This document shows positions 55,205-63,668 of a stretch of DNA of 64,000 bases, piece after piece. Each line of letters opens with the position of its first letter. Position 1 is the stretch's first letter. Under the pieces are notes generated by a model. That model searched no databases, had not been told where the DNA came from, and worked only from the letters and a program-made list of their open reading frames with translations. Origin of the DNA: an uncultured Thiohalocapsa sp. (GTDB taxonomy: Bacteria; Pseudomonadota; Gammaproteobacteria; Chromatiales; Chromatiaceae); contig NZ_CAJXYK010000006.1 of the NCBI RefSeq assembly GCF_913063425.1, positions 62,001-126,000 of the forward strand. The letters run 5' to 3'. The position numbers and the translations under genes are program-made.

Positions 55205-55675
55205 TTACCAGAGCTTGACCGCGGCGACGATCAGGGCGCCGACGGTGCTGATGAAACCGATCAGCCACAGGAAGTGGCGGTCGTGGCGGCGGATCATTTC
55301 ATCGAAGCGGGCATCCACCTGCTGGAAGCGCTTGTCCATCTGCTCGAAGCGCTTGTCGACCTGCTCGAAGCGCTTGTCCACCTGCTCGAAGCGCTTGTCC
55401 ACCTGCTCGAAGCGCGCCAGCATGTCTTGTCGCAGTTCCTGGTGGCGTAGCTCAGCCAGCTCGAAACGCTTGTCCACCTGCGCAAAACGCTCGTCCATGC
55501 GCGCAAAACCTTCACGCATCAGCTCCCGCTGGTGCCTGAGCTCCTCCTCCACCCGCACCATCCGCTCGCGCAGCTCGATCTCGTAGACCGCGGGCGGCTT
55601 GCCGAGACTCTGCTCGGCCAGCCAATCGGCCATGTTGGCCTTGATGAAGTCGATGTCTTCCTTGGTCAGCGTCAT
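55205..55675 (-). CDS. DUF1640-like coiled-coil protein with C-terminal membrane helix
   Basis: 156 residues. A short N-terminal region (LTKEDIDFIKANMADWLAEQS), then a long coiled coil with the heptad RFEQVDK in near-perfect tandem copies, ending in one membrane helix (HFLWLIGFISTVGALIVAAVKLW). Layout resembles DUF1640-type tail-anchored coiled-coil proteins. The 21-base repeats in the gene are very alike, so copy number may vary. No function known. An upstream start at 55714 is possible. Confidence 0.78.
   Translation of the reverse strand: MTLTKEDIDFIKANMADWLAEQSLGKPPAVYEIELRERMVRVEEELRHQRELMREGFARMDERFAQVDKRFELAELRHQELRQDMLARFEQVDKRFEQVDKRFEQVDKRFEQMDKRFQQVDARFDEMIRRHDRHFLWLIGFISTVGALIVAAVKLW
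55329..55412. repeat. Four 21-bp heptad-coding repeats
   Basis: CGCTTGTCCACCTGCTCGAAG in four head-to-tail copies (55329, 55350, 55371, 55392), with one or two changes in the first two. In frame within the coiled-coil gene they encode RFEQVDK-type heptads, whose number sets coiled-coil length. Confidence 0.9.
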
Positions 55676-55816
55676 TGTTGCGGCGTTCGGCAGCTTACCC
55701 GTCGTTGTGGCCAAGTCTAACAGGGGACCGGTACATCACATGGGGCGCGGCCGCCGGCCGCACGGCGCCGCGGCCGGCAACACGGGGGCAGAGGTGCGCG
55801 GGCGCGGACGCCGCGC

Positions 55817-56740
55817 TCAACCGCCCGCCTCGCCCACGCCTTCCAGCTCCAATGTGCACTCCAGCCCGGCCGGAATGCCGTGATCGGGATTCGCCACCTC
55901 CACGCGCACGCCGAAGGTACCGCTGGCGGCGTCGATGACCTGCTCGACGATGGTGACCTCGGCGTCGATGACCTGCCCCTGCGCCCCGTGCAGCAGCACG
56001 CGCGCCGGCATGCCCGCCGTCACCTGCCCATGCACGGCCCCCGGCAGCACGGCCTCCACGTTCAGCGGGTCCAGCTGTGCGATGCGCAAAATGGGCTGCG
56101 CCTGGGCGAACTCGCCGGGGTTCAGGAAGCGCCGGACCACCACGCCGTCGATGGGGCTGCGCAGCACCCGCTGCTCCAGCAGCGCGCGGCTGCGGGCCAG
56201 CTCCAGCTCCGCCAGGCGCTGCTGCTCGCGCTCCGCCTCCAGCTCCAGACGCGCCAGCTCCACGGCGGAGGCCAGCTCGTCCAGCTCGTCCGGCGAGACG
56301 AACTTCTGCGAGGACAGCTTCACCGCCCGCTCGTGCTTCTCCTGGTTGCGGGCGAGGCTCACCTCCCGGGCACGCACCGTGGAGCGCATGTCCGCCCGCG
56401 CCTCGGCCTGGGCCACCATGGCCTGCTCGATGGCGGACTCCAGCCGCGCCACCACCTCGCCGGCCTGCACGAAGTCACCCTTCTGCACCTCGACGCTGTC
56501 CAGCACACCTTCCACGGCGGTGCTGAGCTCCACCACCACGTGCGGCTCCACCAGGCAAGGGTAGCCCGCCGCCGGCAAGGCCGCCGGGACCAATGCCAGC
56601 AGCGCGCCCAGCAAGGTGCTCGCCAACAGCCCCGCTGGTAAGCCGGGCCAAGTCCGGGCGCGACGACGCTCGCCGACGCCGGCGCTACCCGCCGGGGAGC
56701 AGGTGGATGCGCCGGAGTCGTTGCAGGTACAGAGCATCAT
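55817..56740 (-). CDS. HlyD/MFP-type periplasmic adaptor, last gene of the export operon
   Basis: 307 residues. An N-terminal membrane segment (GLPAGLLASTLLGALLALVPAALPA) is followed by the lipoyl half (VELSTAVEGVLDSVEVQKGDFVQAGEVVARLES), a long coiled-coil hairpin (residues about 115-200), the second lipoyl half (LRSPIDGVVVRRFLNPGEFAQAQPILRIAQ) and a beta barrel. It forms the periplasmic conduit of an export machine. It starts 15 bases after the SecA-like gene stop; the tight spacing implies one transcript with the genes upstream. Confidence 0.88.
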   Translation of the reverse strand: MMLCTCNDSGASTCSPAGSAGVGERRRARTWPGLPAGLLASTLLGALLALVPAALPAAGYPCLVEPHVVVELSTAVEGVLDSVEVQKGDFVQAGEVVARLESAIEQAMVAQAEARADMRSTVRAREVSLARNQEKHERAVKLSSQKFVSPDELDELASAVELARLELEAEREQQRLAELELARSRALLEQRVLRSPIDGVVVRRFLNPGEFAQAQPILRIAQLDPLNVEAVLPGAVHGQVTAGMPARVLLHGAQGQVIDAEVTIVEQVIDAASGTFGVRVEVANPDHGIPAGLECTLELEGVGEAGG

Positions 56741-56755
56741 AGTGTCAGCTTCGAG

Positions 56756-58744
56756 TCACTGGCTCGGCCCGGAGAAGGCCATGCTGTCCGCCAGGCGCTC
56801 GTCCTGCTTCAGCAGGCGCTTGCGCAGGCGGCGGTTGCGCGCCTCCGCCCGGCGCTGGGCGGCGCGCAGCAGAGGCGCGGCGAGCCGTGCCCCGCCCGGC
56901 AGGCGCACCCAGAGCCGCAGCAGCGCCCGCGCCGCAGCGGAGAGATTGGTCGCAATGAGCTCATCGTCCAGGGCCAGAAAGGCGGCATGATCGCCCGGGT
57001 CGCCCTGGCGCGCACAGCGGCCATAGAGCTGGCGGTCGATGCGGCGGGCGTCGTGCAGCTCCGTGGCCAGCACCTGCAGCCCGCCCCGGTCCGCGACGCC
57101 GTCGGCCAGCCGGATGTCGGTGCCGCGCCCGGCCATGTTGGTGGCAACGGTCACCACGCCGCGGCCGCCGGCGCCGGCGATGACCTCGGCCTCCGCTGCA
57201 TCCTGACTCGCGCTCAGCACCTGGTGGTCGATGCCGCGCGCCGTCAGCGCCGCACTGGCCCGGTCCGCGGCGGCCACGGTGCGGGTCCCCACCAGCACCG
57301 GCCGGCCGCTGCGCTGAACGGCCGCCACATGCTCTGCAACCGCCGCCCACTTGGCGTCGGCGTCCGCGAAGACCCGGGTCGGCAGGCGCCGACGCCGGCT
57401 CGGGCGGTTGGTGGGCACCCGCACGACGTCCAGGCCATAGACCGCGTGCAGCTCCGCCGCCAGCTCGCGGGCGGTGCCGGTCATGCCGCAGAGGTGCAGG
57501 TAGCGCCGAAAGAAATCCTGATAGCTGGTGCGCGCCAGGGCCTGGCGCTGACCGGTCACCGGCACGTCTTCCTTGACCTCCACCATCTGGTGCAGTCCCT
57601 GCTCCCAGGCGCGGTCCTCCAGCACCCGGCCGGTGTACTCGTCGACGATCTGGATCTTGTCGTCCCGCACCAGGTAATGCACGTCGCGCTGATACAGGTG
57701 CAGCGCACCGAGCGCCTGAGCCACCAGCTCCTCGCGCCGCCGCGGCCCGCGCCAGGGGCCGTCCAGGTCCTGCGCGAGGTCCGCCAGGCGCTCGCGGCCG
57801 ACGTCCGTGAGCTCGATGCGCCGCTCCTGCGGAATGCGGCGAAAGTCCCGCTCCGGTGCCAGCGCCCGGCCGAGCGCCACGGCCTGGGCAAACAGGCCGT
57901 CGGCATCGCCGCCGGCAGCGGACGCGGAGATGATGAGCGGCGTGCGCGCCTCGTCCAGCAGCACGGAGTCGGCCTCATCGACGATGGCGAAGCAAAGCCC
58001 GCGCAGCAGCAGCCCCGCCAGCGCCGGGTCCGTCCCCGCGAGGCGCGCCAGGGAGACGCCGAGGCGGCGCCGGCGCCGGCCCAGGGTGACCCGGTCGCGC
58101 AGAAAGTCGAACGCGAGCTCCTTGTTGGAGGCATAGACCACCTCGCAGCCATAGGCCGCGCGGCGCTCGGCGGGCGCCATACCGTGCAGCGGATTGCCGA
58201 CCCTGAGGCCCAGCGCCCGGTACAAGGGCGACAGGGTGCGTGCGTCGCGCTCGGCCAGGTAGTCGTTGGCGGTAATGACGTGCGCCGGCAGGCCTGCGAG
58301 TGCCGCGGCGCTCGCCGCCAGCGCCGCCGTGAGCGTCTTGCCCTCGCCCGTGTCCATCTCGGCAATGCGCCCGTGCAGCAGCACCCAGGCGCCCATGAGC
58401 TGGACGTCGTAGTGGCGCTGGCCCAGGGTGCGCGTGGCGGCCTCGCGCACCAGCGCAAACAGCTCCGCCACGGGCTCCATCGCGAAGCCCCGGGCCCGCA
58501 GCCGGGCACCCAGCGCCTGAGCCCGCCGGCGCAGCGCGTCATCGGATGCCGCCGCCGCTGAGGCGGCGTGGGCGGCGGCGCGGCGCACGATGGGCCGATA
58601 GCGGGCACTCGACCCCGCCAGCGGGCGCTTGAGCCGCCCCGCCAGCGCCCGCGCCGGGGCCTCGTACCAGGGCTCCCGGTGCAGGCGCCGCTCGGGATAA
58701 ACCACGCCCGCGTCCGCGGCAAGTGACAAGACATGGGAGGTCAT
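56756..58744 (-). CDS. Short SecA-like translocation ATPase
   Basis: 662 residues. The SecA motor is complete: MDTGEGKTLTAALAASAAAL (Walker A), VITANDYLAERDA, VDEADSVLLDEARTPLIISA (DEAD), GMTGTA, VTVATNMAGRGTDI and GRCARQGDPGDHAAFLALDDEL. The preprotein-binding region lies between. After motif VI only about 75 residues remain, so the helical wing domain and the C-terminal zinc tail of housekeeping SecA (about 900 residues) are missing, as in some accessory SecA2. Changes such as GRCARQGDPG for GRSGRQGDPG also mark a specialised branch. Likely moves the cargo of this operon. Confidence 0.88.
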   Translation of the reverse strand: MTSHVLSLAADAGVVYPERRLHREPWYEAPARALAGRLKRPLAGSSARYRPIVRRAAAHAASAAAASDDALRRRAQALGARLRARGFAMEPVAELFALVREAATRTLGQRHYDVQLMGAWVLLHGRIAEMDTGEGKTLTAALAASAAALAGLPAHVITANDYLAERDARTLSPLYRALGLRVGNPLHGMAPAERRAAYGCEVVYASNKELAFDFLRDRVTLGRRRRRLGVSLARLAGTDPALAGLLLRGLCFAIVDEADSVLLDEARTPLIISASAAGGDADGLFAQAVALGRALAPERDFRRIPQERRIELTDVGRERLADLAQDLDGPWRGPRRREELVAQALGALHLYQRDVHYLVRDDKIQIVDEYTGRVLEDRAWEQGLHQMVEVKEDVPVTGQRQALARTSYQDFFRRYLHLCGMTGTARELAAELHAVYGLDVVRVPTNRPSRRRRLPTRVFADADAKWAAVAEHVAAVQRSGRPVLVGTRTVAAADRASAALTARGIDHQVLSASQDAAEAEVIAGAGGRGVVTVATNMAGRGTDIRLADGVADRGGLQVLATELHDARRIDRQLYGRCARQGDPGDHAAFLALDDELIATNLSAAARALLRLWVRLPGGARLAAPLLRAAQRRAEARNRRLRKRLLKQDERLADSMAFSGPSQ

Positions 58745-58771
58745 GGGCTGCCCGTCTCCATGATGGCCCGC

Positions 58772-60919
58772 TCACAGGGCGAAATGGCGTAGGAAGAGCC
58801 GCTGCAGCCAGCGGTACAGCGTCCAGCCCACGGGCTCCCAGCCATGGTCGAAGCGCACATGCACGCGCTCGCCGATCTGCGCAGCCAGTGCGGCGCCGGC
58901 GGCCACCAGGTCGAACTGGAAGACCTTCTCCAGGGCCTGCGCGCCCTCGGTGGCCGTGGGGTCCACCGGGATACGCCCGCCGCCGGTGCTGCCGAGCGCC
59001 GGGCTCGGCAGCTCAAGGCTTGCGCTCGGCACCTCGCCGTTGAGCTGCGCCGGCACCGCGCGGTGCGGGTCCTGGGCGCTGCGCAGGTGCACGCGGCGGG
59101 TTCGGTTGCGCACCAGGTCCACCTCGTCCTGGGTCACCACGGCGCGCACCAAAGTCTCAGCATCGTCGGTAACATAGCCCAAAAGCTCGCCCTGGCGCAC
59201 ATAGCGGTCCGGCAGGTCACGGGCGTCCGGCAGCACCAGGGTCCCGGTCCGCGGCGCGCGTACTTGCAGATCCGCCAGCTGCTCACGCTTGCGGGCAATG
59301 CGGGCGTCCAGGTTGTCGAGCTGCTCCTGCACGATCTGGGCGCGGGTGCGGTCCTCGCGCCGGACCAGGTCGTAGCGGGCCTCCAGCGCTGCGCGCTCGC
59401 CCTGAAGCACCCGGAGCTCCGGCTCCAGCAGCGGGTCGTTCAGGGTCACCAGCAGCTCCCCGAGTGTCACCGCGGCGCCGTTGGCGGCCCTGATCTGGTC
59501 CACGAAGCCCGCCGCCCGCGCCCGCACCTGGGTGCCCTCCGGCGCCCAGACCACCCCCTCGGCCACCGTTGCCAGCGGCACCGGCACCGCGAAGAGCAGC
59601 ACCAGCACCCCAGCCAACAGCAGCCCGGTGACGCCGAGCGCCCGTGGCCGGCGGCGCCCAAGCTCGGGGCTGTTGAGCAGGTAGTGCGCACCTTTGAGCG
59701 TCGGCATCACGAACAGGCTGAAGGCGGCCCAGAGGGCCAGCAGCACACCGATGAAGAAGAACTGCCCGGCGACGAACACCACAATGGCCGCGAAGATGAC
59801 CATGCGGTAGACGAAGGACGCCGGCGCATAGAGCAGGAACCAGCGTGCCTCGCCGGGGGCGCTCGCCGGACTTTCCAGCTCCTTGAGCCCGAACCAGTGC
59901 CGCTTGACGAGGTAGAACACATAGCGGTTGGCGCGGCTCGCCAGGTTCGGGATCTCCAGCAGGTCCGCCAGGATGTAATAGGCATCGAAGCGCAGCAGCG
60001 GATTGCCGTTGAAGAGCAGCGTCGACACGCCGGCGATGATCATGACGTTGTAGGCCAGCGCCTTCACCAGCCCCGGCTCCACCGCGAGCCAGACGAAGAG
60101 CGCCAGCGCCGCCAGCAAGACCTCCACCACCATGCCCATGGCACCGACGAGGGCACGCTGGTACTTGTCGCGGAAGGCCGTGGCGCTGGAGGCGTCCACA
60201 TAGGGCACCGGCATGAACACCAGGAACATGATGCCGATCTGGTGCACCTCGCCGCCCCAGTGCTTGACGGCATAGCCGTGCCCCAGCTCGTGCAGGGCCT
60301 TCACCACCGGGAAGGCGAGCCACATGAGCAGCAGATTCTGCGGCGCCAGCAGCCGGCCCGAGACATCGGCGGCCAGCGCCTCCCAGTGCATGGCCGCCAG
60401 CACCACGGCCGTGCCCACCACCGTGAGCCAGAGCAGGAGGCCGAGCCAGCCGAACAGCGGGCGCACCAGCCAGGCGGTGGCGGCGAGGAAGCGCTCCGGG
60501 TCCACCAACGGCACCCGCACGGCGAGCGGCGACTTGAGCTGCTGCTGCCACTTGCGCCGGCGCTCGCGGTCGAAGCGGCGCACCCGCTCCTCGGTGTCGG
60601 CGTTGATGTCCGTCTGCAGCACATCGGCGGCGTGCAGCTGGTGCAGGAGCCGCAGGGTCTCGCCCTGGGTGGGCACGTCATCGCCCAGCTCCCGCGCGGC
60701 CAGCTCCCAGATGCGCCCCAGCGAGCGGCGGCCGTCCATGAGCCCGATGAGGCGGTGCGCGACGGCGGAGAAGCGGTGATAGCGCCCGGTGCCCGCGTCC
60801 TGGATGACATACCAGCGCTGGCCGCGGTAGTGGTGGCGGTGCAGCTGCACGTGCGGGCGCAGCCTGGGGCGCAGATCGGCGACCCGGTACCACTGGGGGT
60901 CTAGGAGCGGCTCGGGCAT
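58772..60919 (-). CDS. PqqD-M50 peptidase-HlyD fusion membrane protein
   Basis: 715 residues. The N-terminus (residues about 20-105) is PqqD-like (YVIQDAGTGRYHRFSAVAHRLIGLMDG). Then comes a multi-helix membrane domain with the metalloprotease motif KALHELGHGYAVKHWGGEVHQIG (HExxH) and NGNPLLRFDAYYILADLLEIPNL (third ligand region) of site-2 (M50) peptidases. After about residue 440 come a membrane helix and a HlyD-like lipoyl/coiled-coil domain (VRARAAGFVDQIRAANGAAVTLGELL). Similar fusions are known near bacteriocin or giant-protein exporters. It may process and pass on cargo. It is 27 bases upstream of secA-like. Confidence 0.88.
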   Translation of the reverse strand: MPEPLLDPQWYRVADLRPRLRPHVQLHRHHYRGQRWYVIQDAGTGRYHRFSAVAHRLIGLMDGRRSLGRIWELAARELGDDVPTQGETLRLLHQLHAADVLQTDINADTEERVRRFDRERRRKWQQQLKSPLAVRVPLVDPERFLAATAWLVRPLFGWLGLLLWLTVVGTAVVLAAMHWEALAADVSGRLLAPQNLLLMWLAFPVVKALHELGHGYAVKHWGGEVHQIGIMFLVFMPVPYVDASSATAFRDKYQRALVGAMGMVVEVLLAALALFVWLAVEPGLVKALAYNVMIIAGVSTLLFNGNPLLRFDAYYILADLLEIPNLASRANRYVFYLVKRHWFGLKELESPASAPGEARWFLLYAPASFVYRMVIFAAIVVFVAGQFFFIGVLLALWAAFSLFVMPTLKGAHYLLNSPELGRRRPRALGVTGLLLAGVLVLLFAVPVPLATVAEGVVWAPEGTQVRARAAGFVDQIRAANGAAVTLGELLVTLNDPLLEPELRVLQGERAALEARYDLVRREDRTRAQIVQEQLDNLDARIARKREQLADLQVRAPRTGTLVLPDARDLPDRYVRQGELLGYVTDDAETLVRAVVTQDEVDLVRNRTRRVHLRSAQDPHRAVPAQLNGEVPSASLELPSPALGSTGGGRIPVDPTATEGAQALEKVFQFDLVAAGAALAAQIGERVHVRFDHGWEPVGWTLYRWLQRLFLRHFAL

Positions 60920-60952
60920 GCTGCTCGCTGGCGTCCGCTGAGGTGGCGGCGT

Positions 60953-62806
60953 TCAGGGCCACCAGGCCCAGAGCTTGAGCCGCGCCCAGTCCAGAAAGCC
61001 GCGGGTCCAGATCCAGATGAGCCGGCGCTCGCCGATGTCGATCTTGCCGACACCCTCCATGCCCGGGCGCAGGCGCTTCGGCGTCTCGGTGAGCCGCGCC
61101 TCCACCGCGAAGCTGTTCTGTCCGTCCACCACCGTGGCCACCGGGGTGATGAGCGTAACCTCCATGGGCAGGCGCTGCTCCGGCAGCGCCGCCAGCACCA
61201 GGGTGCCGGTCTGGCCCACGGCGAGGTCGTCGATGTCGCCCTCGGCGACCGCGAGCTGGACGCGGTAGGCATCCGCCGGGGCCACCTCGAACAGCACCTC
61301 ACCCTGCTGCACCGGCGCGCCCAGGGACTGGCTGAGATCCCCCGAGACCAGAATGCCGTCGAAGGGTGCCGTCAGGCGCGTTCGCGCCAGCTGCTCGTCG
61401 ATGAGGGCGAGCTGGGCTTCGGCCTGCTCGATCTGGGCGGTCAGGATGCGCACCCGGGCGCGGTCGCCCTCCGCTGCGGCCTGGCGGCGCTCGCGCCGGT
61501 ACTGGGCCTGCTCGGTGGACAGGCGCACCTGCTCCAGCTTCAGGTCCCGGTCGTCCAGGGTCGCCAGCAGCTCGCCGGCGGCCACCTGCTCGCCGGCGCG
61601 GGCCTCGGCAGTCTCGATGTAGCCGGCGAAGGGCGCCACCAGGGCGCGCAGCTCGCCGCCCTCCAGGGTCGCATCGGCGCTGACGCGATACTGGCCCTTG
61701 GCAAAGACGAAAAAGGCCACCAACGCGACAATCCCGAGCACCGCGAGCTTGCGCCCCAGGTGCTTCGGCCCGAACAGGCGCTTGAGCTGATCGCTGGCGG
61801 ACTGGCCGATCTTGGTCGCGATCCAGCGCTCTTCCTCACGCTTGCAGAGCAGCAGGGGCGCGGCCAGCTCCCCCGCGGTGGCGGCGAGGTCGGCGTCCAG
61901 ATCAGACAGCCGCCGGCCCGCCGGGCGCTCCAGGGTCAGGGCCGCCGCCCAGTCGCCGTGGGCGCGCAGCGGCAGGGTGCAGATCTCCGGCGCCCCCTGC
62001 TGCTGCGCGAGGGCCTGGTGGGCGGCCATCACCACCAGCTCGTCGGTGCTCGGATAGGCGAGCCGGGTCTGCTGGTCCACGGCCTCGTCCATGGCGGCCT
62101 CGATGAGCCGGATCAGGTTCATCTGCCGGCCGAAGCTTGCGCTGTGGGAGACCGCCTGCACCCGCAGCTGCCGGCCCCGCCGCAGGCCCAAGCTCACCCG
62201 GTCGCAGTCGAGCCGCGTGGCCAGCTCCGAGACCAGCGCCGAGGCCGCGGCCTGGAAGCGGTCTTCTTCCACCACCGCCGCCACCAGATCCAGCACCGAG
62301 AACACCCGGCGGTTGGCGGCGGCGGCGGATTCGCGCTCGCGCCGGTGCAGCTCCAGCTCCATGCCCGCCGCCCCCCAGTGGATCTGCCGCAGCGCCTGCT
62401 GCACCGCGGCCTCGCCCGCCGCCGCCAGCTCCACCACCAGGGCCCCGTGCAGGGCTTCGCCCACCACCAGCGGATAGGTGAGATGAAACAGGCCCGCGTC
62501 GCCGGGGCGTGGCAGGGCCAGGCCGCGGCGCTCGCGCAGGGTGCGCTCAGCGGCGGGGGAGAGTGCCGTCACGTCCCGCTGCGGGTCGGGCCAGACGGCG
62601 GCGGGCGTGTAGGGTCCGCGCTCCGCCTCACCAAGCAGCAGCAGCGCCGACCGGGCACCGGCCAGCTGGCCACAGAGCAGGGACAGCCAAAGCGCCGGGA
62701 AGCGACTGCTGCCGGGGGCGCCGGCGAAATCGGCCCAGGCGGCGGCGGGCGTTGCAGCCGCGTCGGCTGCGGCCCCGGCGGCCGTGTCGAGGGAGGCGAT
62801 GCTCAT
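60953..62806 (-). CDS. GAF-domain/HlyD fusion adaptor
   Basis: 617 residues. Residues about 30-330 form one or two GAF-like domains (FPALWLSLLCGQLAGARSALLLL; a second from about 185, VLDLVAAVVEEDRFQAAASALVSELATRLDCDRVSLGL). One membrane helix follows (LAVLGIVALVAFFVFA, about residue 365), then a HlyD-type periplasmic part (LRALVAPFAGYIETAEARAGEQVAAGELLATLDDRDL, coiled coil, LTAPFDGILVSGDLSQSLGAPVQQGEVLFEV). So a cytoplasmic ligand-sensing domain is joined to an export adaptor, an unusual design. It sits between sapC and the M50-HlyD gene. Confidence 0.88.
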   Translation of the reverse strand: MSIASLDTAAGAAADAAATPAAAWADFAGAPGSSRFPALWLSLLCGQLAGARSALLLLGEAERGPYTPAAVWPDPQRDVTALSPAAERTLRERRGLALPRPGDAGLFHLTYPLVVGEALHGALVVELAAAGEAAVQQALRQIHWGAAGMELELHRRERESAAAANRRVFSVLDLVAAVVEEDRFQAAASALVSELATRLDCDRVSLGLRRGRQLRVQAVSHSASFGRQMNLIRLIEAAMDEAVDQQTRLAYPSTDELVVMAAHQALAQQQGAPEICTLPLRAHGDWAAALTLERPAGRRLSDLDADLAATAGELAAPLLLCKREEERWIATKIGQSASDQLKRLFGPKHLGRKLAVLGIVALVAFFVFAKGQYRVSADATLEGGELRALVAPFAGYIETAEARAGEQVAAGELLATLDDRDLKLEQVRLSTEQAQYRRERRQAAAEGDRARVRILTAQIEQAEAQLALIDEQLARTRLTAPFDGILVSGDLSQSLGAPVQQGEVLFEVAPADAYRVQLAVAEGDIDDLAVGQTGTLVLAALPEQRLPMEVTLITPVATVVDGQNSFAVEARLTETPKRLRPGMEGVGKIDIGERRLIWIWTRGFLDWARLKLWAWWP

Positions 62807-62876
62807 GCACCCGACCCGGGCTCAACGCGCAGCCGGGGCTGATGCCGCCGATACGGACCGGGGCAGCCCCTGCGCA

Positions 62877-63668
62877 TCAATGCTTGGTGGCCTCCGCCGC
62901 CTCGTCGGCCTCCGACGCCGGCGCCGTGTCGGCTTCGGCACCGGTGGCAGGCTGCGGCATACGCTCGCCGATGAGACGCAGGTTGGCCAGCGAGTGCAGG
63001 TGCAGATAAATCAGCTCCAGCTCGTCGCGCTGCATCAGCCCGTGCAGGGTCTCGGCGTCCAGCTCCTTGAGCTTGGTCCGGTTCACCACTCGCAGGCCGC
63101 TCAGCACCCGGCGCTCGCCGCCGCCGGTGCCGAGCTGCGCCTGCACCGGCGCCAGCAGGCCGAGCTCCACCAGGCGCTTGCAGAAGGCCTGGGTACGCTG
63201 GTGCTGCACCTGGTAGGCGCGCTGGAAGTTGATCACCTGCTCCAGGTAGGCGGTGCGGCTGCCCTCGGCATCGAACAGCCGCTCGCCGCGGCCCTCGCGA
63301 TTGCAGCCGGAAAAGCCCTCGTCGATGCAGAGCGTCAGGTTCTTGCCGTCCCCGGACTGAGCGAACACGAAGGGGTAGCGCCGCACGAAGGCCGGGATGT
63401 ACTTTGCGCGCCAGCGGCCGTCGTCATCCACGTAGAGGTTCTGCTCCTTCTGGGCGCCAAGGATCACCAGCGGCACCACCTGGTCGTCATTGCCGGCGAA
63501 GACGATGGCGTACTCCAGCGCGGCCGCCGGCAGCTCCGCCGCCGTCAGCGGCACGGAATTCACCTTGGCGGCGAAGCCGTAATCGGCGCCCGTCTTCACG
63601 GACAGGTCCTTGTGCTCGGTGACGCTGACGGGCTTGGCGTCGGCATAGAAGAGGAGTTGGTTGGTCAT
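62877..63668 (-). CDS. SapC-family protein
   Basis: 263 residues. AAKVNSVPLTAAELPAAALEYAIVFAGNDDQVVPLVILGAQKEQNLYVDDDGRWRAKYIPAFVRRYPFVFAQ, LCIDEGFSGCNREGRGERLF, and TKLKELDAETLHGLMQRDELELIYLHLHSLANL follow the SapC family (PF07277), named after a Campylobacter S-layer-locus gene. Function not settled; often beside large surface-protein and secretion genes. The start is the ATG at 63668. First gene of the five-gene operon seen here, 70 bases before the next. Confidence 0.9.
   Translation of the reverse strand: MTNQLLFYADAKPVSVTEHKDLSVKTGADYGFAAKVNSVPLTAAELPAAALEYAIVFAGNDDQVVPLVILGAQKEQNLYVDDDGRWRAKYIPAFVRRYPFVFAQSGDGKNLTLCIDEGFSGCNREGRGERLFDAEGSRTAYLEQVINFQRAYQVQHQRTQAFCKRLVELGLLAPVQAQLGTGGGERRVLSGLRVVNRTKLKELDAETLHGLMQRDELELIYLHLHSLANLRLIGERMPQPATGAEADTAPASEADEAAEATKH

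Follow-up and report, generated by a model that had tools for sequence, protein, structure and literature searches.

The window analysed here is a 64,000-nucleotide stretch from an uncultured Thiohalocapsa sp. (positions 62001-126000 of contig NZ_CAJXYK010000006.1, here C6; 5.9-Mb genome, label G000). It contains five open reading frames (ORFs) that lie head to tail on the minus strand and encode, in order, a SapC family protein, a GAF-HlyD adaptor, a PqqD-M50-HlyD protein (hereafter M50-HlyD), a short SecA and an HlyD-type adaptor. In this study, relatives of this gene set, referred to below as the machine, were found to be associated with genes for giant proteins that carry an N-terminal LEPR-XLL motif. 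The first-pass annotation of the window had read the five genes as one operon. This is likely on the basis of the shared strand and the spacing (70, 33, 27 and 15 bases between successive genes, counted from SapC).

Genes and domains of the locus

The SapC family protein (263 amino acids [aa], 62877-63668, minus strand, like all features in this section) matched PF07277 with 238 bits. Its structure model was confident (pLDDT 91.6), and comparison of this model with PDB gave no match. The GAF-HlyD adaptor (617 aa, 60953-62806) consists of an N-terminal GAF part (21.7 bits), one membrane span predicted from hydrophobicity near residue 349, and a C-terminal HlyD part (HlyD_3, 74 bits); GAF was matched by 29 of 30 relatives at E 0.01. 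The last gene of the set encodes the 307-aa HlyD-type periplasmic adaptor (55817-56740; HlyD_D23, 66 bits; RND_mfp, TIGR01730, 125 bits), which has a hydrophobic N-terminal segment at residue 32. HlyD-type adaptor domains (PF13437/PF16576) are thus present in three of the window's proteins. Three Pfam scores of these proteins fell just below their cut-offs, namely GAF (21.7 versus 22.4 bits), M50 (24.3 versus 27.2 bits) and PqqD (23.3 versus 23.4 bits).

The M50-HlyD protein (715 aa, 58772-60919), presumably the centre of the machine, has Pfam matches to PqqD, M50 and HlyD_3. Its N-terminal PqqD-like (RRE-like) domain (residues 12-105, 60605-60886) matched the PqqD structure 3g2b in a profile comparison (E 9.1e-5) and shows the PqqD-type winged-helix fold. 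In the M50 part, an HExxH motif (residues 210-214, 60278-60292) is followed downstream by an aspartate, and H210, E211, H214 and D312 were invariant in 53 sequences; with these residues the M50 part is a predicted M50 (site-2) protease. At E 0.01, 50 of the 53 relatives matched Pfam M50 and 32 matched PqqD. The best NCBIfam match of the M50 part was the daptide HExxH protease NF041824 (148 bits against a cut-off of 300, residues 18-405). An HlyD/AcrA-like periplasmic adaptor part (residues 445-702, 58814-59587) completes the protein, whose structure model had a pLDDT of 85.4 and a pTM of 0.61.

The short SecA (662 aa, 56756-58744) contains DEAD, cross-linking and P-loop domains. Its Walker A motif GEGKT (residues 133-137, 58334-58348) and the D, E and D of its DEAD box were invariant in 40 short SecAs, and the A of the DEAD box was nearly so. 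With these domains and intact motifs, the protein has the predicted make-up of a SecA motor. Alignment with the PDB SecA 3jv2 scored 425 bits and stopped at residue 607 of the 783-residue chain. Moreover, no Pfam match to the SecA wing/scaffold family (SecA_SW) was found in the short SecA, and none of the SecA and SecA2 models tested gave a score that reached its cut-off. Judged by these comparisons, the short SecA lacks the C-terminal scaffold/wing region, in which the two-helix finger of SecA is located. Sixty-nine relatives had estimated lengths of 641-669 aa; in the 60 of them that were listed, the tail was similar.

Association of the machine with LEPR-XLL giants

A profile built from nine M50-HlyD proteins retrieved at least 586 relatives, and the best 80 loci were used for neighbourhood counts, in which each fraction includes just the loci with sufficient flank. 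These 80 loci span alpha-, beta-, gamma- and deltaproteobacteria, Myxococcota and Nitrospira, among others. GAF-HlyD lay upstream of M50-HlyD in 65/65 loci, short SecA downstream in 55/56, and HlyD within 6 kb in 41/47, in a few cases on the opposite strand. In the sole locus that missed SecA (L059), a short SecA was located on another contig of the same genome, where a match to LEPR-XLL lies roughly 2 kb away. The gene set therefore recurs far more often than by chance, and the possibility raised in the first-pass annotation that it is confined to one genome was disproved by relatives in many bacterial groups. In a divergent branch, which includes G195, G257, G153 and G485, the giant occurs together with TolC, HlyD, GAF-HlyD-like and M50-HlyD-like genes. 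Between the giant and the machine of this branch, two genomes encode three related small proteins of 198-200 aa (L221:3792-5711, L222:9416-11335).

LEPR-XLL was scored with NCBIfam NF012209 (cut-off 17 bits), and M50-HlyD was called present at E 1e-20. When seven neighbour ORFs from the window's family and class were scanned, five matched NF012209 with 23.7-31.6 bits, and four of these five also contained DUF4347. One of the two non-matching ORFs was a C-terminal piece, and its N-terminus matched with 37.5 bits; the other, in L048, showed no match and is taken up below. Among 229 genomes of the window's class, M50-HlyD was present in 31, LEPR-XLL over the cut-off in 30, and both in 20. LEPR-XLL was thus found in 20/31 genomes with M50-HlyD compared with 10/198 others (Fisher p 5e-14, in a test that ignores relatedness, as do all Fisher tests here). 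When limits picked after seeing the data were applied to the same class, the counts were 15/17 and 5/212, with the 17 drawn from 15 families. In the class of Thioclava pacifica (190 genomes, that species included), the motif was found in 7/10 machine genomes versus 6/180 others, and in the window's family (35 genomes) in 6/8 versus 1/27; the two misses in this family were genomes 69% and 83% complete. Nine congeners had neither a full M50-HlyD nor LEPR-XLL. Of 50 genomes behind the best 80 loci that were submitted to a search, 49 were covered, and LEPR-XLL was over the cut-off in 42 of these. These combined counts show that the machine is associated with LEPR-XLL giants.

The giants are very long, with open frames of up to 15,167 aa. 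Of 34 distinct LEPR-XLL N-termini, 28 start with LEPR and 17 read exactly LEPRxLLSAD, a uniformity that is overstated by the pattern-based selection of these N-termini; the variants LEAR, LEQR and LEPRMMFDAA also occurred. The N-termini are regarded as having no hydrophobic signal, because none of the 34 reached a 15-residue hydrophobicity mean of 1.8. The same threshold was reached by 35/48 HlyD proteins, 5/5 TolC proteins and 0/57 short SecAs. When 27 giant C-termini were compared by eye, no common motif was seen.

Giants were also found directly beside the machine. In five strains a LEPR-XLL giant lies 36-159 bases upstream of GAF-HlyD, with open frames of 12,896 aa in Thioclava pacifica, 7,974 aa in Neptuniibacter caesariensis, 7,909 aa in Vibrio maerlii, 9,026 aa in Ensifer sp. 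Root278 and 9,838 aa in Bradyrhizobium sp. DOA9. It lies downstream of the machine in G016, G033, G020, L060 and others. The first-pass annotation had suggested that a giant surface protein may be encoded upstream, beyond the window. This holds for these relatives but not for the window copy, which no giant gene adjoins; its SapC gene is preceded upstream by a fragment of hrpA, then a small coiled-coil gene and then hrpA itself. In the window's genome, a 7,268-aa LEPR-XLL frame on contig C16 is divergent from a second machine copy beside it, and a 12,613-aa frame with the LEQR variant is on contig C28, with no machine in the 60 kb read there. The cargo of the window copy would then be encoded in trans, by the 12,613-aa or the 7,268-aa frame. 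The same genome has two further SecA genes: C9 encodes one of canonical length, with a 982-aa frame, and C16 another short one.

The small coiled-coil gene flanks the five genes in direct copies, at 55205-55714 of the window and at about 126370-126960 of C6 (L004:9374-9958), with 85% identity over 514 bases. A decayed hrpA 3' fragment (86%, 235 bases) sits between SapC and the upstream coiled-coil copy. From their sequences, the flanking repeats and the hrpA fragment are read as the trace of an insertion or duplication.

Partner genes of the machine and of the giants

An outer-membrane channel had been named at first pass as another possible missing part. In relatives this was borne out, since PF02321 (TolC type) was detected in 4/4 candidates tested, two of them from the divergent branch; near the window copy no TolC was seen. 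TolC matches were also found beside SapC in Vibrio maerlii, before a radical-SAM trio in Neptuniibacter and in the clusters of the divergent branch. The listing of neighbours that the first-pass annotation had proposed, for giants and TolC-like genes, thus yielded both in relatives. An ABC exporter was sought with one query in the loci around the machine, and no match was obtained among machine genes, although a distant or unlinked ABC gene may exist. With this query, the first-pass refuting condition that relatives belong to a known system such as an ABC exporter was not borne out. The query matched elsewhere in L125 (upstream), L104, L077 and L156, and in L239 an ABC-F-looking gene directly follows M50-HlyD.

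The fullest gene run was observed in Neptuniibacter (L073), where TolC, two unknown proteins, radical SAM, SapC, the giant, GAF-HlyD, M50-HlyD, SecA and HlyD follow one another. The radical-SAM trio consists of a radical SAM protein and two conserved unknown proteins. Its radical SAM gene matched PF04055 in 2/2 cases tested, with HxsC4 as the nearest NCBIfam model (90 and 76 bits; cut-off 500). The trio was located near the machine or the giant in 9/80 loci, in Neptuniibacter and beside the C16 copy (L039:5949-8517, minus strand), and none was seen near the window copy. Because the trio stands beside machine or giant, some giants may be chemically modified. Trio loci beside the machine or the SapC-giant pair include L206:8648-11213 and L219:9191-11834.

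In 9/80 loci, a SapC gene on the strand of M50-HlyD lay no more than 5 kb away from it, in varying positions. Twenty-nine genomes were then chosen from the 80, a biased sample in that eight were included despite an earlier sighting of SapC beside their machine; 20 of the 29 had SapC (25 genes in 26 rows). Sixteen of the 25 genes had the machine or a LEPR-XLL giant at a distance of about 6 kb or less, compared with about 0.2 expected (positions matched by hand). SapC directly precedes the giant in several species, namely in Neptuniibacter, Vibrio maerlii, Aminobacter sp. HY435, Methylobacterium brachythecii and M. aquaticum. In a sample of the window's class, 4/41 SapC rows were linked, the window's own among them, and SapC is therefore taken as a cargo-side partner of several systems rather than a fixed part of the machine. 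The place on the cargo side given to SapC at first pass was supported by its position next to giants in relatives, but SapC is optional and has other settings too. Taken together, these data suggest that SapC is likely a recurrent, optional cargo-side partner of the giant.

Other SapC genes were also noted. On C87 of the window's genome (L007:702-9358), an ABC exporter-like gene comes after SapC, and a 1,193-aa ORF lies on the opposite strand (by eye). In L174, L178, L184, L186, L188, L194 and L195, SapC adjoins ORFs that by eye resemble two-partner secretion, cupin and tryptophan halogenase genes. In G106 (C8:78642-81684), whose genome has no M50-HlyD at E 1e-20, SapC lies about 2 kb from a weak, sub-cut-off LEPR-XLL match (11.9 bits) in a 7,273-aa frame.

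A putative exporter and its alternatives

We consider it probable that the machine exports LEPR-XLL giants as a tripartite HlyD/TolC system, which is organised by an M50 membrane protease that bears a PqqD-like domain and is assisted in one branch by a SecA core lacking the usual C-terminal part. The first-pass reading of an export machine of no textbook type is upheld in this form: the association is observed, while export, leader binding and cleavage are what we infer from the sequences. The five genes would encode the inner-membrane and periplasmic part of an exporter whose giant substrates are surface proteins or secreted ones. The PqqD-like domain would bind the LEPRxLLSAD-type leader at the cytoplasmic face, in line with the cargo-side role proposed for PqqD at first pass, and the M50 site would trim the LEPR-XLL leader. 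The HlyD parts of the three adaptors would form a periplasmic duct to TolC, and in the branch having a short SecA its core would clamp the chain and feed it with ATP. The GAF part would regulate, and in the cytoplasm SapC would hold the giant or prepare it. The giant may cross the inner membrane either through SecYEG or through those parts of M50-HlyD and GAF-HlyD that lie in this membrane.

Several observations weigh against this proposal. LEPR-XLL was not over the cut-off in 11/31 M50-HlyD genomes of the window's class and in 7/49 genomes behind the relatives, which may partly reflect incomplete genomes or variant motifs. A neighbour in L048, a 2,195-aa protein with Ig repeats, had no LEPR-XLL match. 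Conversely, G246 (100% complete; C57, L153, L154) has a 7,373-aa LEPR-XLL frame but neither M50-HlyD (at E 1e-20) nor a short SecA, so that a giant can occur without a recognisable machine. The PqqD-like domain matches non-RRE proteins too, and a TolC profile match was obtained in a minority of loci (5/80, four on the same strand). The short SecA was absent from five related systems (G016, G033, G020, G223 and G239) and from 6/6 divergent-branch genomes tested (G257, G153, G195, G227, G472 and G343); in G115 it was on a different contig. The short SecA, the motor in the first-pass view, is thus not a universal motor. Given the systems without it, the basic machine would work without a short SecA, powered by canonical SecA or another source.

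The many systems without a short SecA are also what one would expect if the giants crossed via SecYEG and canonical SecA, with M50, the adaptors and SapC just trimming them and passing them to the outer-membrane channel. Canonical SecA-like proteins were found in 18/18 genomes tested and in the window's genome, and the M50 protease is by family a processing enzyme. We regard such a hand-over complex as unlikely, however: the LEPR-XLL N-termini have no Sec-type hydrophobic segment, and a short SecA beside the machine would be hard to explain.

Markedly less probable still is a maturation system resembling those of ribosomally synthesized and post-translationally modified peptides (RiPPs), in which the PqqD domain, M50 and in places radical SAM would modify a peptide or the giant's leader, with export secondary. 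The daptide protease match, the PqqD-like domain and the trio beside some machines or giants, including the C16 copy, all point in this direction. The trio, however, is found in a minority of loci, and what recurs beside the machine is a giant, accompanied by three HlyD proteins and in some loci by TolC; small precursors were not searched systematically. Finally, the window HlyD scores as an RND-type adaptor and GAF domains often bind small molecules, but a small-molecule or metal efflux or sensing system merely travelling with giant genes is very improbable, given that no pump gene was seen among the machine genes and that the machine co-occurs with and adjoins LEPR-XLL giants in several lineages.

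The preferred reading, a tripartite exporter for the giants, can be compared with known systems. Type I secretion (HlyB-HlyD-TolC) likewise employs HlyD-type adaptors, with a TolC that some relatives of the machine also encode; very large repetitive substrates without a Sec signal and one-step export would be further likenesses. Type I secretion signals sit at the substrate C-terminus, whereas here the motif is at the N-terminus, and M50-HlyD, GAF-HlyD and often a short SecA take the place of an ABC exporter. Because no ABC exporter was found among the machine genes with the one query used, the machine was not assigned to type I secretion. The short SecA is homologous to SecA and accessory SecA2 and shares their motor motifs, but differs in its early end relative to 3jv2, the missing SecA_SW match and its sub-cut-off scores. 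With the daptide protease and PqqD/RRE proteins, M50-HlyD shares the PqqD-like plus M50 arrangement; it differs in its additional HlyD adaptor part, its giant partner and its score below the NF041824 cut-off. In the S-layer export system SapCDEF of Campylobacter fetus, SapC is also encoded beside the secretion genes of a surface protein; that system has an ABC-type exporter, whereas here SapC lies beside an M50-HlyD machine.

In our literature searches, no published description of the gene set, no export route for LEPR-XLL giants and no role for the motif were found. The likely cargo, LEPR-XLL/DUF4347 giants, is known as protein families only. A passage on a Vibrio giant of about 8,000 aa with LEPR-XLL names no export route (PMC10868602), and another passage merely names a LEPR-XLL protein (PMC9611531). 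As presented in part of a 2021 review, tripartite systems and type I secretion are built around ABC, RND and MFS pumps (PMC8277102). We rate the machine as new as a system, assembled from known domain types. A more far-reaching proposal, which we hold as a tentative possibility, is that it represents a further class among the tripartite exporters, with an intramembrane protease at its core in place of an ABC, RND or MFS pump. A PqqD-type domain would recognise the N-terminal LEPR-XLL leader in the way that RiPP enzymes recognise the leaders of their precursors, the protease would free the chain, and a SecA core without the two-helix finger would ratchet proteins of many thousand residues into the HlyD/TolC duct, with SapC and, in some species, the radical-SAM trio preparing or modifying the giant.

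LEPR-XLL giants rank with the longest bacterial proteins encountered in this analysis, and a dedicated machine of this kind, if the proposal is correct, would explain how they exit the cell. The LEPR-XLL motif would gain a function as an export leader, and a secretion system would be seen to contain an intramembrane protease as well as a recognition domain of the RiPP type. It would also follow that SecA can be reduced to its motor core and re-used.

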